Origin: Gammaproteobacteria bacterium
GTDB taxonomy: Bacteria; Pseudomonadota; Gammaproteobacteria; JAADHQ01
Reading direction: 5' to 3'
Length of the DNA stretch: 44,806 nucleotides
Assembly: GCA_011052215.1 (NCBI GenBank)
Contig: DRJK01000060.1
Span: 1-44,806, forward strand
Notes under the pieces: generated by a model
Databases searched by the model: none
Seen by the model: the letters and a program-made list of their open reading frames with translations, nothing else
What the model was told of the DNA's origin: nothing
Program-made: the position numbers and the translations under genes
Shown here: in pieces, positions 26,274-39,782 of the stretch
How positions within the stretch are numbered: position 1 is the stretch's first letter
How the letters are laid out: each line of letters opens with the position of its first letter

Positions 26274-26610
26274 ACTTTATTTCTTCCTGTTGCACAAAAA
26301 ACCCCGCCTTGTAGCGGGGTTTTTTGTGCAGGTTATGATCTTCCTTTCAATTTTATTATCACATCCTATTTACCATGTTTATTATGTTGAATTACCCGGG
26401 AGGTTCTGAATATTTGTGATTAACCTGTCATTTTTTATCTGAACACTAAATATTATTGTTGCTATGGCCGTTAAACAGGTAGCAGACAGGGGTTTTGCAA
26501 CATGGAACTTTATGTTCAAGGGCCTGACAAAATAAACTTTTTCAAGATCTGATTCTTTCCACAGAGGGAGTGCGCCTTTGAGAAAAGAATTTACCGGATA
26601 GGAATCCTAT
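26274..26610. other. Intergenic region between rpmG and the giant chimeric gene
   Basis: 337 bp containing the rpmG terminator (26291-26330) and then about 280 bp of AT-rich DNA with no supported gene. It presumably holds the promoter of the 1595-residue protein. GATAGGAATCC about 8 bases before ATG 26611 supplies its ribosome binding site. Confidence 0.5.
26291..26330. terminator. Strong terminator after rpmG
   Basis: A perfect 17 bp stem, 26291-26307 against 26314-26330, closes on the loop CTTGTA. Its core is ACCCCGC/GCGGGGT, flanked by A6 and T6 runs, so it can stop transcription from either side. Confidence 0.93.
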
Positions 26611-29600
26611 ATGAGTGCTGTGCCAAAATTGGCTGATAAAAAGTCCCTGAGAAATCTTGTACCTTTAAACGGCTTGTCCAACACACATTTCGAAGAGTTG
26701 GCCAGGAAGGCTAAAATAATTGATCTGAGCACCGGCAAGCTGTTATTCAAAAAAGGTGAGCGGGATAATGCGACCTGTTACGTTTTATCAGGAGAAATTG
26801 CGCTACACGATGGCACGGATATCAAGCTAACGATTCAGGGAGGTACGGAAGAAGCCAGGCATCCCATCGCACCCCAACAACCCCGCCAATTAAGTGCCCG
26901 TGCAAAAACACCCGTCACCATTGTCAGTATTGACTCCGGATTACTGGATGTCATGTTGTCGTGGGAGCAGTCATCTGGCTATGAAGTTACCGAGGTAGAC
27001 GCAGATGAAGAAGAGGACTGGATGACACGCATGATGCAGTCCGAACTCATGCAGAGGCTGCCAGCTACAAATTTGCAACAACTCTTTATGCGTATGCAGG
27101 AAGCCCCTGCAGAAGCCGGCGAGGTCATCGTCAATCAAGATGATGAGGGTGACTACTATTACATAATCAAGGAAGGCAAATGTATCGTTAGTCGCAGGCC
27201 CTCGGCAAATGCAAAATCGGTAAAGCTGGCCGAATTGACAGATGGCGACAGTTTCGGAGAAGAGTCACTGTTATCAGGCGCCAGGAGAAATGCCACGGTT
27301 ACCATGCTGACCAAGGGCAGGTTAATGCGTCTGTCAAAGAATGATTTTAATGAATTACTGAAATCGCCACTGCTAAGCCAGGTCAGCTATGATGAGGCAA
27401 AGGAATTAATACAGGATGGTGCAGTGATTCTGGATGTCAGATTGCCTGGTGAATACTCCAACGCACATTTGAAAGACAGTATTAATGTTCCACTTGCCGC
27501 TATTCGAAATGAAATTTCCGGATTTGATCTTGACAAGCCCTATGTTGTTTATTGCGATACTGGCAGACGTAGTACCAGTGCCGTATTCCTGCTGGGGCAA
27601 TTCGGGATAGACGCCCATGTATTGAAAGATGGTTTAAGTGGTGTGCCCCTGGAGGAATACACCGAAGTTCAAAAAAACGAGTCGGACGAGCAAATCAAAT
27701 CGATAGAGATGGCAGCAGATGTAATTGACATTAACCGGGAAAAAGAACTGACTGTCAGCGCCACTGAAGCTGCGAATTCAATTAATGTAAAGCTGGAGCA
27801 ACAGGTTAGTTTATTAACAAGTAAAACAGAAAATCTGAAAAAGAAGCTGAAAGAGGCTGAAGCAAGGGTTAAGGAAGGTGAGCAGGAAGTAAGATTATTA
27901 CAGAATGCTGCGATTAAGGAAAAGAAAAAAGAAAGTGAGGTCGAAGAAGTACTAATTGAAGCACAGAATCGCGAAGTGGAGTTGATCAGGGTAAAAGAAC
28001 AACTTGTAAAGGCTGAGAGCCAGGTTGGAAAATACAAGGTTCTTGCGGCTTCAGTAGAAGATGCAGAAATTCTGGGTGGTAAAATTGAAAGGCTGAAGGA
28101 ATTGTTGCTGAGTGAGCAAACCCAGAAAACCAGAATGGAAGAGGAAGTAGCTGCATTAAAAGAGAAATTTGAAAAGGAGCTGGCTGGCAGCCATGAGAAC
28201 ACCGAAGATATACAGAGACAATTTGATGAAAACCAGAATACCAGGCAAGGGCTTGAGTCAGAGCTTGCCAGTTCAGGGGCGACGATAGAGCTGCTAAAAA
28301 AAAACACAGAAGAACTTGAGAGTCAGTTAAATGTACTGAATGAAAAACTGGACTCCGAGGTTAAATCAGGTACAGACAAGCTTGTTTTACTGGAAGAAGA
28401 ACTCAGGCAGGAAAAGCAGGAGCTGACCCGGGCCAGGGATGATCTCGCCGGAACCCGGACCGAACTCGAAGGGAAAGAAAGTGAACTAAAGACACTGCGG
28501 GAAGGGGCTGAATCCGAGGTTAAATCAGGTACAGACAAGCTTGTTTTACTGGAAGAAGAACTCAGGCAGGAAAAGCAGGAGCTGGCCCGGGCGAGGGATG
28601 ATCTTGCCGGAACCCGGACCGAACTCGAAGGGAAAGAAAGTGAATTAAAGGCACTGAGGGAGGGGGCTGAATCCGAAGGTAAGTCTGTATCAGAGAAGCT
28701 GGGCTCACTGGGAAAAGAACTCAAGCGGGAAAGGCAGGAGTTGACCCAGACAAGGAAAGATCTTACCAAGGCGAGGAAAGATCTGGAGTCACATACCGTA
28801 GAAATCAAGGCAACTGAAGAGGCTTACCAGTACAAGCTGGGGCAGGTTCAGTCCGAAAAAGAGCAGCTTGAATTAGGTTTTAACAAGGAGCTGAAAGAGT
28901 TAAGGAGGCGCCTCGCTGAATCCGGTAAAGGTGTGGAAAAGCAGCTATCTGTATTGCAGAGAGAGGTTGAAGAGGCGGTCAGTGCGCGCAATAAAATAAC
29001 CAGACAGCTGGATGAGACGAACCGGAAACTGGATGGAAGTCTGGAAGATAATGCCAGGCTGGAATCCGAACAAGGAGAGTTAAAGAATGAGTTGGGCAAA
29101 AATAAGGATAAACTGGCAAGCGTAACAAATGATCTGAACCGGAGTAAAGAAGAACTGGAAAACTCAAAGTATGAGTTGGGTCGAAACAAGGATGAGCTGG
29201 AAAATGCAAGAAACAGGTTGAGCCAGAACAAGGATGAGCTGGAAAATGCAAGGAACGGGTTGAGCCAGAACAAGGATGAGCTGGAAAATGCAAGGAACGG
29301 GTTGAGCCAGATCAAGGATGAGCTGGAAAATGCAAGGAATGAGTTGAGCCAGAACAAGGATGAGCTGGAAAATGCAAGGAATGAGTTGAGCCAGAATAAC
29401 AGTACATTGGCTGAAAAGGAAAAGGAAAGAAATGGCATCAACAATGAACTGGCAGCATTACGGGCAATATATGCGCAAAAGGAATCGGAGATAACACTGC
29501 TTCAGAAAGAACTGGATGAGTCCAGGAACAGGATTGGCGCACTGACCAGCAAGGATGGTGATATTGAAAATGGCAGACTGGAGGCAGAGCAAGGATTAAA

Positions 29601-31398
29601 GCTTGTAAAACAGGAATACGAGCAGGCGGCAAATGAAAGCAGGGAGAAAACACGGCAACTCGAAAAGGAAATAGAACAGAAAGACAGGGAGATTATAGAG
29701 GCCAACAGAAAGGCTGAAGAGGCTATATCCTTACGTACAGATGCTGAATCCTCATTCACAGTAATGGAGTCAGAGGCACGGCAGATTAATCTTGAGTCAG
29801 AGGGGATGAAAAAATCTCTGAGTGAAAGTGAAGAAAAATTGAAATCTCAACAGGCGGAACTGGAAAGCCTTAAAAAAGAAAAACAGGAGTGGCTTGACAG
29901 TCAGAATGATGCGGGGCAAAAAGTGGATGCAAACTTTTTGCAAAGCCGTATCAATGAACTTGAGGCGCAACTGAAAGACAGTCAGAACATGATGGCCGAG
30001 TCTCGTGATTCAATCAGGAAATTTGAAAATGATCTTTCCATGGAGCGGCATAAATCAGACAGGGATAACAGTCTTCAGACCCAGATTGAGAAGCTCAAAC
30101 GCGAAATGGAGGAGCAGCTTGAGAATTACAAGTCCGAGATCGACGATGATGCTGTTTCCATCAATAATGAAAACGAGAAGCTTCGCGATGAGCTAAAGCA
30201 ATTATACAAAGAGCAGGAGATCGCGATAGAGACAGGAAAGCCTGTTACAGCAAAAAGATTGATGCCTGTCCGGGAACCCGCCAATAACCCGGCCCCGAAA
30301 CAGCCAGCAGCAACGGATCATTCTGCACTGTTTGATCTGCCGGATATTGATAAAAATCTGTTTAGTAACAATGCCACAGTTGCGGCACCGAAAAGTAAAC
30401 TGATTATGTTCGTTGTCGTGTCATTATTTCTGTCAATAGTCTCGGCAGGCGGTGTTTACTGGTATTTTGTTCTAAATAATGGGGGGCAGGGTCAAAAATT
30501 AATTTCGGCAGGCAATGAGTCAGTTACAGAGCCCGATAATATACCTGCAGCCGGCAGTAAAAAAGACAATCCAGCCAGGAAAGTGGCAAGGAAGTCATTA
30601 TTCAATTTTGATAAAAAGATGGCCAATACCCCGAAAGTCGCACTTAAAAAAGCAGGAAAAACCAGGCCAACCAAGGTGTTCAGGGATACCCTGAAAGCGG
30701 GGGGGAGAGGGCCTTATATGGCCGGTGCCCCTGCTGGTGTATTTAATATGGGCAGTCCATCCAGTTCTGTCCAGTTCGAGGAAAGGCCCGAGCACACCGT
30801 AAAAATCAGAAAATTTTCAATATCAAAATATGAAATCAGTTTCGACGAATATGATCGTTTTGTCGCCGATACAGGCAGGCCACGCCCGTCTGATAGCGGA
30901 TGGGGACGTGGCAAGCGTCCGGTGATTAATGTCAGCTGGAATGATGCTGTCGCATATACAAAATGGTTGTCCAGGCAAACCGGCCGTCTCTACCGGTTAC
31001 CATCCGAGGCGGAGTGGGAGTATGCAGCCCGGGCGGGCACAAAAGGAAAGTACTGGTGGGGAAACAAGGTGGGCAAGAACCGGGCAAACTGTTTTAATTG
31101 TGGCAGTCAATGGGACCGGGCAAGCACCGCTCCGGTTGGTAAGTTCAGGTCAAATGCCCTTGGCCTGCACGATATGGCGGGTAATGTTGCGGAGTGGGTG
31201 AGTGATTGTTACCACGAAAATTACAAGGGGGCACCTGCGGATGGCTCGGCCTGGGTGGAGGCATCATGTGATTCACATGTCACCAGGGGAGGGTCATACA
31301 GAAGTACGGCAGATAATGTTCGTGTGACCGGGCGTTCCGGGCTTTCTTCAGACTCGGCCCTTGACCAGCTTGGGTTTCGTATTGTACGTGTACGATAA
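26611..31398 (+). CDS. Giant chimeric protein: two cNMP-binding-like domains, rhodanese, long coiled coil, membrane helix, SUMF1/FGE-like domain
   Basis: 1595 residues. Order: a degenerate cyclic-nucleotide-binding fold (about 10-115); a second, better one (about 140-250) with FGEESLLSGARRNATV, which keeps the Glu and Arg of the phosphate-binding cassette; a rhodanese domain (about 255-350) with active-site Cys315 in YCDTGRRS; an almost unbroken charged coiled coil (about 380-1215); one membrane helix (about 1262-1288, LIMFVVVSLFLSIVSAGGVY); a basic linker; and a SUMF1/FGE-like domain (about 1365-1595: RLPSEAEWEYAARAG, GLHDMAGNVAEWVSDCY, RGGSYRSTADN, LGFRIVRV). Where true formylglycine-generating enzymes have two Cys after RGGS, this has Ser and Val, so that catalysis is unlikely. 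The gene stands alone between a strong terminator and a family B repeat. I know no named protein with this order; function unknown. Confidence 0.92.
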   Translation: MSAVPKLADKKSLRNLVPLNGLSNTHFEELARKAKIIDLSTGKLLFKKGERDNATCYVLSGEIALHDGTDIKLTIQGGTEEARHPIAPQQPRQLSARAKTPVTIVSIDSGLLDVMLSWEQSSGYEVTEVDADEEEDWMTRMMQSELMQRLPATNLQQLFMRMQEAPAEAGEVIVNQDDEGDYYYIIKEGKCIVSRRPSANAKSVKLAELTDGDSFGEESLLSGARRNATVTMLTKGRLMRLSKNDFNELLKSPLLSQVSYDEAKELIQDGAVILDVRLPGEYSNAHLKDSINVPLAAIRNEISGFDLDKPYVVYCDTGRRSTSAVFLLGQFGIDAHVLKDGLSGVPLEEYTEVQKNESDEQIKSIEMAADVIDINREKELTVSATEAANSINVKLEQQVSLLTSKTENLKKKLKEAEARVKEGEQEVRLLQNAAIKEKKKESEVEEVLIEAQNREVELIRVKEQLVKAESQVGKYKVLAASVEDAEILGGKIERLKELLLSEQTQKTRMEEEVAALKEKFEKELAGSHENTEDIQRQFDENQNTRQGLESELASSGATIELLKKNTEELESQLNVLNEKLDSEVKSGTDKLVLLEEELRQEKQELTRARDDLAGTRTELEGKESELKTLREGAESEVKSGTDKLVLLEEELRQEKQELARARDDLAGTRTELEGKESELKALREGAESEGKSVSEKLGSLGKELKRERQELTQTRKDLTKARKDLESHTVEIKATEEAYQYKLGQVQSEKEQLELGFNKELKELRRRLAESGKGVEKQLSVLQREVEEAVSARNKITRQLDETNRKLDGSLEDNARLESEQGELKNELGKNKDKLASVTNDLNRSKEELENSKYELGRNKDELENARNRLSQNKDELENARNGLSQNKDELENARNGLSQIKDELENARNELSQNKDELENARNELSQNNSTLAEKEKERNGINNELAALRAIYAQKESEITLLQKELDESRNRIGALTSKDGDIENGRLEAEQGLKLVKQEYEQAANESREKTRQLEKEIEQKDREIIEANRKAEEAISLRTDAESSFTVMESEARQINLESEGMKKSLSESEEKLKSQQAELESLKKEKQEWLDSQNDAGQKVDANFLQSRINELEAQLKDSQNMMAESRDSIRKFENDLSMERHKSDRDNSLQTQIEKLKREMEEQLENYKSEIDDDAVSINNENEKLRDELKQLYKEQEIAIETGKPVTAKRLMPVREPANNPAPKQPAATDHSALFDLPDIDKNLFSNNATVAAPKSKLIMFVVVSLFLSIVSAGGVYWYFVLNNGGQGQKLISAGNESVTEPDNIPAAGSKKDNPARKVARKSLFNFDKKMANTPKVALKKAGKTRPTKVFRDTLKAGGRGPYMAGAPAGVFNMGSPSSSVQFEERPEHTVKIRKFSISKYEISFDEYDRFVADTGRPRPSDSGWGRGKRPVINVSWNDAVAYTKWLSRQTGRLYRLPSEAEWEYAARAGTKGKYWWGNKVGKNRANCFNCGSQWDRASTAPVGKFRSNALGLHDMAGNVAEWVSDCYHENYKGAPADGSAWVEASCDSHVTRGGSYRSTADNVRVTGRSGLSSDSALDQLGFRIVRVR
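28354..28671 (+). repeat. 159 bp in-frame tandem repeat inside the giant gene
   Basis: Two nearly identical 159 bp units begin at 28354 and 28513 (TCCGAGGTTAAATCAGGTAC). A third, more divergent unit begins at 28672. Each codes for 53 residues of coiled coil, so the repeat keeps both frame and helical register. High DNA identity implies recent duplication. Confidence 0.85.
29185..29394 (+). repeat. 42 bp in-frame tandem repeat (five units) inside the giant gene
   Basis: Five 42 bp units encode NKDELENARNxLSQ, residues 859-928, where x is R, G, G, E, E. 14 residues equal two heptads, so copy-number change would lengthen the coiled coil without breaking it. Degenerate units flank the array (SKEELENSKYELGR before, NNSTLAEKEKE after). 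Confidence 0.9.
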
Positions 31399-31407
31399 TA
31401 ACCGGGG

Positions 31408-31575
31408 CCAGGAGCCTGTCGGACTTAGGATGATTCTACTGCGGCGGCAGGAAATTGGCCCATTTTCCCGATCTTTTTCGTTAAATAGGCCAACTATTCG
31501 CCTCAAAAGATCGAAAAAATGGCCTCAATTTTCCACTCGCCTCGCTACGAACACCTAAGTCCGACAGGCTCCTGG
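31408..31575. repeat. Family B miniature inverted-repeat element (168 bp)
   Basis: Perfect 22 bp terminal inverted repeats at 31408-31429 and 31554-31575, beginning CCAGGAGCCTGTCGG. The arms continue to pair imperfectly inward (GATCTTTTTCG against AAAAGATCGAAAAAAT), so almost the whole element folds as one hairpin. No reading frame inside and no target duplication seen. It starts 10 bp after the stop of the giant gene and may act as its terminator. Confidence 0.88.
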
Positions 31576-31620
31576 CTTCTATCATCCTGCCTGCTGTTGT
31601 AACATTGGTTTTACCCGTGT

Positions 31621-31687: not shown

Positions 31688-32554
31688 ATGTCAAACATCC
31701 TTTCAATTGGAGTTGCCGTTCTGGATATATCAAGCCGGGTGTGTGGTTATCCTGAAGAGGATGATGAGGTTCGCGCACTGGAGCAAAGGGTTTCCAGGGG
31801 TGGTAATGCCACCAATACCCTGGTGGTTTTATCTCAACTGGACCATCACTGTAGCTGGGCAGGTGTTATTGCCGATGATTTGAATTCGGTCTTTATCCGT
31901 GAAGACCTCGGTATAAATCATGTCGGCATGGAGTATGTCAGTGTGTGTAACAATCACAAGACACCCGTGTCGCATATAACCATAAACAGTGAGACGGGTA
32001 GCCGGACAATAGTACATTATTCTGATTTGCCGGAACTGACACTGGCTGATTTTAAACGGATTGATTTGGGCAGGTTTGACTGGGTTCATTTTGAAGGCCG
32101 GAATATTGGCCAGACAGAAAATATGCTTATGCACATCAAGGATGGTTTTGATTCCTTGCCTATTTCCCTGGAGGTGGAAAAACCACGAGGGGATATAGAC
32201 CGGTTGTTTTGTTTTGCGGATATTTTGCTTTTTTCCAGAGTTTATGCGAGGTCTGCAGGTTTTGCTGACGCACAATCCCTGCTTGAATCAATGCATCGTG
32301 ACTATCCCGAAACACTGCACTACTGCACATGGGGCGGCCAGGGTGCATATTTAATGAACCGTGAAGGTAAAATGGTTCATTCACCAGCAAGCAATATTCC
32401 GGAAATTGTTGATACAGTGGGTGCGGGCGATACGTTTAATGCCGGCATTATCCATGCGCATCTGGCCAGCAAAGGTGAAAGAGAAGGCCTGGCACTTGCC
32501 TGCAAGCTTGCCGGCAGAAAATGCATGCAAACGGGGTTTGATGGTCTGGGTTAA
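31688..32554 (+). CDS. PfkB family sugar kinase, ketohexokinase-like
   Basis: 288-residue ribokinase-superfamily kinase. The N-terminal ILSIGVAVLDISSRVCGYPEEDDEVRA, the GGNATNTLVVLSQL motif and the C-terminal anion-hole/catalytic motif DTVGAGDTFNAGIIHA are intact. Local resemblance is to ketohexokinase-like members rather than ribokinase or PfkB proper, but the substrate is not certain. I start at ATG 31688; a GTG at 31676 is in frame, and no good Shine-Dalgarno is visible for either. A family B repeat fragment lies just upstream. Being 1.4 kb from prk, a link to sugar phosphate metabolism is possible but unproven. Confidence 0.88.
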   Translation: MSNILSIGVAVLDISSRVCGYPEEDDEVRALEQRVSRGGNATNTLVVLSQLDHHCSWAGVIADDLNSVFIREDLGINHVGMEYVSVCNNHKTPVSHITINSETGSRTIVHYSDLPELTLADFKRIDLGRFDWVHFEGRNIGQTENMLMHIKDGFDSLPISLEVEKPRGDIDRLFCFADILLFSRVYARSAGFADAQSLLESMHRDYPETLHYCTWGGQGAYLMNREGKMVHSPASNIPEIVDTVGAGDTFNAGIIHAHLASKGEREGLALACKLAGRKCMQTGFDGLG

Positions 32555-32660
32555 TGCATTGCCAGGTAACCCGCAGGTTTCAAATATAAACGGGGAAGGA
32601 TACCCCTCAGTCCTCTAAATACATGACATGAAAGCAGGGTTGCTGAAGTTTCAGCGGTGT

Positions 32661-32882
32661 TTACTTCATCGTATTAATGAAGCTTCCTATTTTAACATTC
32701 ACCATATGGGCAGGCATGGAGCCCACAACTTCAGTGCGTTTAAATTCAACCTCCCGAAGTTGTAATTCTTTATCGATACCCGCCAGTTCAACCATTGCTG
32801 GCTGAGTCGGTTCCTCCGGCGTATTGCTTATTTCGAGTTCCTTTCGAAATGTGCCTGATGTCATGTCGTATACAGTGATCAT
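32661..32882 (-). CDS. Small conserved-looking protein of unknown function (73 aa)
   Basis: 73 residues starting MITVYDMTSGTFRKELEISN, with a predicted short beta pair then an amphipathic region ending in NVKIGSFINTMK. No motif or signal peptide is recognised. GAGAGGTGTAGC right before the ATG is a good ribosome binding site, and AT-rich promoter-like DNA lies upstream, so I consider it a real gene. The neighbours are the PfkB kinase (convergent) and, beyond 550 bp, a DUF6763-like gene and prk on the same strand. Confidence 0.65.
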   Translation of the reverse strand: MITVYDMTSGTFRKELEISNTPEEPTQPAMVELAGIDKELQLREVEFKRTEVVGSMPAHMVNVKIGSFINTMK

Positions 32883-33433
32883 GCTACACCTCTCTAGTAT
32901 TTCAATATCCTTATACTATCTATCGGCGAAACATCCTGAACATTTAGAACCTTTGCTCCGGGACTAAGTTCAACCTATATTTATCATAATTTAAAAAAAT
33001 ATGGAAATTCTAATATATAAATAAGTAATACATGAAGTAAAACAATTACTTGGAATCAGCAAGCAAGGCCGGAATGCCACATTTTATGCGTGTATGCGGT
33101 TGTTTTTTATTCATTTGCGGCCATCAGTGACCATAAAAAAAGGGATCCGTTCCGGGGACACTACCCGTTTTTTCATCGGGTAGTAAATAAAGCCTTCTTT
33201 TCCTGACAATCTGTCGCTCTGGTGGTGGCCAAAGATGCTTTGCCGGTGTTTATATCATTACTGCATGAGTCAGGAATAGCCGCGTTATGGTTTCTGAAGG
33301 CGGGGCAGTGCCTCGATGGGGTATTTCCAGGGATTGAATTTTTTTATTATAAAATAAAATTACCGAAGACCAGCCATTGCGGCTGTATGGTGCCATGCCA
33401 TTGTTTTTCAGGCTGGTTTATCAAGAAGGGCTA
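32883..33433. other. AT-rich intergenic region
   Basis: 551 bp. 32980-33060 is very AT-rich and may contain the promoter of the 73-residue gene (TATACTATCTATCGG near 32911). A perfect 8 bp stem-loop lies at 33160-33184 (ACTACCCG/CGGGTAGT). An open frame from GTG 33222 on the plus strand has no ribosome binding site or family resemblance and is not accepted. Otherwise nothing is recognised. Confidence 0.45.
33160..33184. other. Stem-loop in the prk-side intergenic region
   Basis: ACTACCCG (33160-33167) and CGGGTAGT (33177-33184) form a perfect stem with a T-rich 9-base loop. It is about 250 bp downstream of the DUF6763-like gene on the minus strand. It lacks a clear T-run, so a terminator role is uncertain. 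Confidence 0.35.
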
Positions 33434-33730
33434 TCAGTCTTGCGCATCAAGTACATCGAGTGGATTTTTCCAGGCAGGATGTGACGTTTCCTCAAGGTCA
33501 ACTCCGTAATCCTGTTTATCCAGATCCAGTGATCCCGACCAGTCTTCAGGGGGTTCGATTGTAATGAAGTTCTGCTCATACCACGATTCCAGGTCAATTT
33601 CCTCTACTGTTCCATCGAAGTATTGTATTTCTATAAGCCCCGGACTCTGGTCCAGGGCAACGATTTCAAAGTTGTTGCCACTCATGTTTTGATACCAGTC
33701 ACCAATTACAGGTTTCATTACCAGTGCCAT
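33434..33730 (-). CDS. Small acidic protein, DUF6763-like
   Basis: 98 residues: KPVIGDWYQNMSGNNFEIVA, then LIEIQYFDGTVEEIDLESWYEQ and PPEDWSGSLD. This fits the small acidic SH3-like family annotated DUF6763, seen in autotrophic Gammaproteobacteria; the assignment is from memory of the pattern. The start ATG 33730 follows AAAAGGGTT. The gene is 213 bp downstream of prk in the same direction, but a terminator lies between, so it probably has its own promoter. Function unknown. Confidence 0.75.
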   Translation of the reverse strand: MALVMKPVIGDWYQNMSGNNFEIVALDQSPGLIEIQYFDGTVEEIDLESWYEQNFITIEPPEDWSGSLDLDKQDYGVDLEETSHPAWKNPLDVLDAQD

Positions 33731-39638: not shown

Positions 39639-39653
39639 TCGAATCAGGGAAAA

Positions 39654-39730
39654 GATAAAAGATAAAAGATAAAAGATAAAAGATAAAAGATAAAAGATAA
39701 AAGATAAAAGATAAAAGATAAAAGATAAAA
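39654..39730. repeat. Heptamer tandem repeat, locus 2 (GATAAAA x 11)
   Basis: Eleven uninterrupted, identical copies of GATAAAA. The perfection implies recent expansion by slippage, and unit number is likely to vary between strains. It lies between the convergent ends of the YcbK-like gene and the polymerase gene. Confidence 0.96.
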
Positions 39731-39782
39731 GGTCTAAGGGGAGATTGTCTCAGTCTCCCGGGGCTTTAGAATTATAGTATAA

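Follow-up and report, generated by a model that had tools for sequence, protein, structure and literature searches.

Few bacterial cAMP effectors are known beyond the CRP-type regulators. CbpA (PA4704) of Pseudomonas aeruginosa reportedly carries a degenerate N-terminal cyclic-nucleotide-binding (CNB) domain followed by a cAMP-binding CNB, and is said to have a polar location. The same order of a degenerate and a putatively binding CNB is found in the N-terminal head of the protein described here, a likeness to CbpA as it has been described, and CbpA is not known to have the coil, membrane helix and FGE domain of our protein. In a review (PMC11139211), CbpA is given as a second cAMP effector beside Vfr, and the title of the CbpA paper in its reference list contains "polarly localized". 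Eukaryotic PKA/PKG regulatory subunits share the tandem CNB fold and matched the head best in both sequence and fold, but in our protein the first CNB is degenerate, the host is bacterial and no kinase partner was seen. For the C-terminal domain, the closest solved structure is PvdO (5hha, profile E 8e-51), a periplasmic protein of pyoverdine maturation that has no cytoplasmic part, and our protein scored 169 bits against the 500-bit cut-off of the NCBIfam PvdO equivalog model (NF051459). PorK/GldK of the type IX secretion ring use an FGE-fold domain structurally. The match to them was weak (96 bits versus a cut-off of 350), and unlike our protein PorK/GldK is a lipoprotein without coil or CNB.

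The window analyzed is a stretch of 44,806 nucleotides (contig DRJK01000060.1 of the gammaproteobacterial assembly GCA_011052215.1). Within it, a single frame at 26611..31398 (+) runs from an ATG start without internal stop and encodes 1595 amino acids. From N to C terminus it comprises a degenerate CNB, a CNB whose phosphate-binding cassette is intact, a rhodanese with its cysteine, a proline-free heptad coil, a membrane helix and an FGE-sulfatase fold. An earlier note, made from the DNA letters, had read the frame as a giant chimera of cNMP-binding, rhodanese, coiled-coil, membrane and SUMF1-like parts, and this order was borne out by Pfam, orthologs and topology prediction, with the cNMP_binding, Rhodanese and FGE-sulfatase folds all above their Pfam gathering cut-offs. 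As that note had suspected, there appears to be no named protein of this kind: no NCBIfam model covers the giant above its cut-off, so membership of a known named family was rejected, and no description of the domain order was found in the open-access literature. The combination thus looks undescribed while its parts are of known kinds. We lean towards the view that the giant is a membrane-tethered, cyclic-nucleotide-responsive scaffold, and the evidence for and against this is given below.

The same full order was present in 31 genomes from at least 17 families of the class, in proteins of 1259–1984 aa. This set was drawn from the longer frames carrying the N-terminal module together with earlier relatives, and module, coil and FGE domain were all required; two of the 31 were pieced together, one across contig ends (G004) and one across a frame break (G212). 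One might suspect that separate genes were joined in assembly or fused by chance, given that head and FGE domains are found separately in other genomes. However, independently assembled genomes of those families, among them three single-contig ones (G082, G124 and G134), carry the identical order within a single frame, so a join is excluded and we regard this explanation as having next to no chance of being right. Three other genomes of the genus each carry one such frame (1603, 1756 and 1860 aa) in the arrangement radC – giant – pfkB. A contig search with the raw protein returned three full-length records, each from a MAG of the same genus, and two matches in an Aminicenantes MAG that covered the FGE domain only. 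The frame at 26611..31398 is a genuine, very long protein conserved over many gammaproteobacterial families, and it looks like a member of a widespread family rather than a one-off chimera.

The N-terminal module itself is more widely distributed. Its profile matched in 171 of 369 genomes of the class, in frames of between about 340 and 2033 aa, and often as a stand-alone CNB-CNB-rhodanese protein of ~350 aa that has the same module and key residues but lacks the coil, the membrane helix and the FGE domain. In some relatives the FGE domain or the rhodanese cysteine is missing, which counts against the scaffold. In a quick, unrooted module tree without bootstrap, one clade of 26 rows (SH-aLRT 98) consisted of 23 FGE giants and 3 contig-cut rows. 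The remaining FGE giants were spread over a small number of other groups, with a mostly coil-only group standing apart. The architecture is thus old, with either losses or repeated gains, between which the tree cannot tell. Coil-only genes also occurred as divergent, outward-facing pairs encoding 802-1292 aa (L103 6790-13667, L106 5428-12410 and L118 4594-10376) and as tandem pairs (L048 and L119). In L044 (3297-10191), a coil-type gene followed two large ORFs that were Hsp70/StbA-type ATPase-like by eye. Short stand-alone genes in L038, L041 and L123 adjoined genes that by eye were glnK-amtB-like, a possible link to nitrogen.

The first CNB (residues ~18-121; 26662..26973, +) was placed by a sub-threshold PF00027 stretch, AlphaFold strand order and alignment columns. 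This stretch (residues ~39-112), scored alone, reached 25.4 bits against the cut-off of 27.5, and the cassette has no G-E pair, with R92 retained in 65 of 68 N-modules. A conserved linker, D-W-M-T-R-M-M-Q-S (residues 136-144; 27016..27042, +), was recognized from alignment columns and has an invariant tryptophan (W137, 68/68). The second CNB (residues 141-252; 27031..27366, +) matched PF00027 clearly (residues 168-251, E 2.7e-23, 82.2 bits), and its top PDB matches were PKA/PKG regulatory CNBs. Its phosphate-binding cassette, FGEESLLSGARRNATV (residues 215-230; 27253..27300, +), contains the G-E...R pattern with a spacing of 9 from E217 to R226, the same as in the PKA match. F215, G216, E217 and L220 were each present in 68/68 N-modules and R226 in 66/68. 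In AlphaFold, the strands and helices of the module (mean pLDDT 78.5, pTM 0.56) followed the order expected for a rhodanese and two CNB folds, and among the best 50 Foldseek matches the tandem CNB part hit PKA/PKG regulatory subunits at E 3e-18 to 7e-15. Whole-module TM-scores were low (about 0.3) because the relative placement of the domains is poorly fixed in the model, and this too is a point against the scaffold. CNB2 probably binds cAMP or cGMP. Characterized cAMP/cGMP sites usually carry Ala, Ser or Thr where CNB2 has N227 (Asn in 61/68), and this atypical residue counts against a cyclic-nucleotide scaffold.

A class I or III cyclase was found in 168 of the 171 genomes bearing the module versus 83 of the 198 without it, as raw counts from genome lists matched by hand that ignore shared ancestry and genome size. 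In genome G000, four cyclases belong to class III and one to class I. Together with the invariant F215, G216 and E217 and the near-invariant R226, these counts strengthen the proposal of the earlier note that the cassette belongs to a cyclic-nucleotide sensor, and sensing of cyclic nucleotide by the predicted head is well supported at the level of sequence. The same association would hold for any cAMP receptor, which counts against using it for a scaffold in particular.

The rhodanese domain (residues 253-350; 27367..27660, +) matched PF00581 at residues 260-344 (E 4.5e-15, 56.4 bits versus a cut-off of 22.2) and the rhodanese domain of a CoA-persulfide reductase in the PDB (E 9e-11). Its active-site loop, C315-D-T-G-R-R320 (27553..27570, +), was read from the alignment of 68 N-modules. 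The cysteine was retained in 63 of these and in 30 of the 31 FGE giants, and R320 in 57/68. With a profile above cut-off and the active-site cysteine, intact as previously noted, in a six-residue loop, the domain is predicted to be a rhodanese of the sulfurtransferase type, and we infer a sulfur role for the protein. The conserved cysteine would permit a head that reads persulfide status, and only permit it.

The head is followed by a long coiled-coil stalk (residues 351-~1211; 27661..30243, +). Its longest proline-free stretch covers 860 residues, from 351 to about 1211, with a hydrophobic period of 3.44-3.56 between residues about 407 and 1134. At 0.1485 nm per helical residue this corresponds to ~128 nm if the helix is continuous; the earlier note had put the coil at about 830 residues and its span on the order of 120 nm. 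Two recently expanded tandem arrays lie within the coil: one with a 159-bp unit (53 aa; 28354..28747, +), and one with a 42-bp unit of 14 aa or two heptads, in five copies with 96% matches (29185..29396, +). Among orthologs of the genus, identity was about 68–84% in the head, mostly 53–79% in the FGE domain and mostly 12–48% in the coil. Because it is poorly conserved between conserved end domains, the coil looks like a spacer under loose constraint on length and composition. Across the family, module and membrane helix lie 365 to 1294 residues apart (913 in the window protein), as would suit such a spacer, and a role as an exact ruler is unsupported.

A single transmembrane helix, as the earlier note had it, was predicted from hydrophobicity at residues 1264-1282 (30400..30456, +). 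Of 29 giants, 24 carried the more positive flank on the N-terminal side, three were tied and two were reversed, which favors an N-in/C-out orientation. The FGE-sulfatase-fold domain behind it (residues 1347-1595; 30649..31395, +), identified by Pfam, PDB profile match and cysteine columns, would then be periplasmic. The SUMF1/FGE-like assignment stands as to fold (PF03781, residues 1371-1593, E 6e-59, 200.2 bits versus a cut-off of 23.3) but not as to an enzyme-type site. The segment from R1559 to the C terminus, where the copper site would lie, contains no cysteine at all in any of 33 FGE sequences. A true formylglycine-generating enzyme was ruled out for this reason and, with both copper-binding cysteines missing, we judge the domain to be non-catalytic by the copper-cysteine criterion; PvdO likewise lacks the pair in the alignment. 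Four other cysteines (C1494, C1497, C1533 and C1553) were invariant in 33/33 sequences, which fits an oxidizing periplasm. The AlphaFold model of this domain was of low confidence (mean pLDDT 60) and was left out of the interpretation. A variable protein of a DGR with an FGE fold was also considered, and was rejected as genome G000 (95% complete) had no RVT_1 match. An FGE fold was seen in another signaling protein, a fusion of PP2C phosphatase, membrane helix and FGE fold (L040 292-2193).

Two other readings of the giant were weighed. In one, the FGE fold would bind a periplasmic ligand or peptidoglycan, the CNB-rhodanese head would be the output and cyclic nucleotide a co-regulator. The FGE domain is the best conserved part apart from the head, with its four invariant cysteines, and its place behind a membrane helix recurs in the PP2C fusion, but many head-bearing genomes have no FGE domain on the head, whose function is thus separable, and we consider a periplasmic sensor of this type rather doubtful. 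In the other, the protein would organize the envelope or cell pole, with the coil setting spacing or polar position in the manner of giant scaffolds and the CNB and rhodanese only recruiting partners. The coil, long and variable in sequence, would suit this, an FGE fold without catalysis can play a structural part as in the weakly matching PorK/GldK, and the reported presence of CbpA at the pole offers a lead. However, catalytic and ligand residues of the head are kept across wide divergence, which is unexpected for a purely structural part, making such an organizer improbable and less credible than the sensor.

The gene had been described as standing alone behind a strong upstream terminator. 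The terminator was confirmed, as a stem at about 26302-26321 after an rpmG-like ORF, but the description as alone holds only in part, and not for the family: a co-oriented gene for a ketohexokinase-like PfkB kinase, conserved as a partner by comparison of neighborhoods, lies downstream (31688..32554, +; best E to a PDB ketohexokinase 1.8e-61). A same-strand ketohexokinase-like pfkB and/or Rieske-like gene was found downstream within three genes in 19 of the 31 FGE-giant loci, and one coil-only locus (L110) has both of these neighbors. The Rieske-like call is based on a CPHTG…C-x-x-H motif seen by eye, and a PDB search with the protein gave no match. In the window, no Rieske-like gene was present at 32554-33434, its place beside pfkB in relatives. 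The gap between giant and pfkB is 278 bp in the window and often 18-90 bp in relatives. The larger gap is due to a MITE-like inverted-repeat element with 23-nt perfect arms (31407-31576), parts of which occur at about 15 other positions in the genome. Upstream contexts vary among the giants and include rpmG/radC, xth or TerB/HU-like genes (named by eye). A plasmid origin was rejected, as a search against plasmids gave no match and the neighborhood is one of core genes. Further downstream (39650-39731), a perfect 7-bp tandem repeat, AAAAGAT in 11.7 copies, directly follows a small ORF and is possibly a phase-variable or simple-sequence tract.

Profile searches, conservation and topology prediction all support the membrane-anchored scaffold first suggested in the earlier note, and we hold it to be somewhat more probable than the contrary. 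In such a scaffold, a cytoplasmic head of degenerate CNB, putative cAMP/cGMP-binding CNB and sulfurtransferase-type rhodanese would be carried by a dimeric coil acting as a spacer, so that the head could extend as far as about 120-130 nm away from the inner membrane. A single helix would cross the membrane, with the disulfide-rich, non-catalytic FGE fold serving in the periplasm as an anchor or ligand-binding sensor. Cyclic nucleotide would change the binding partners of the head or its position. We infer the ligand identity, dimerization, reach, topology and the effect of cyclic nucleotide on the head. As output partners, the ketohexokinase-like and Rieske-like proteins of the linked genes are the strongest candidates. 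Over 120 nm, a coil would be unlikely to pass on a conformational signal rigidly, which counts against the scaffold.

A more elaborate version, a receptor responsive to both cyclic nucleotide and persulfide on a ~120-nm tether that couples a periplasmic FGE-fold sensor to the ketohexokinase-like/Rieske module, is speculative and in our estimation unlikely. If true, it would give long coiled-coil tethers a bacterial counterpart, within a family that is undescribed and widespread among gammaproteobacteria. The family is a conserved candidate for a membrane-tethered cAMP effector, present in 17 bacterial families or more; its predicted binding and sulfur-transfer residues are intact, partner genes recur downstream, and its very long, poorly conserved stalk may offer a bacterial example of a spacer-type coiled coil.
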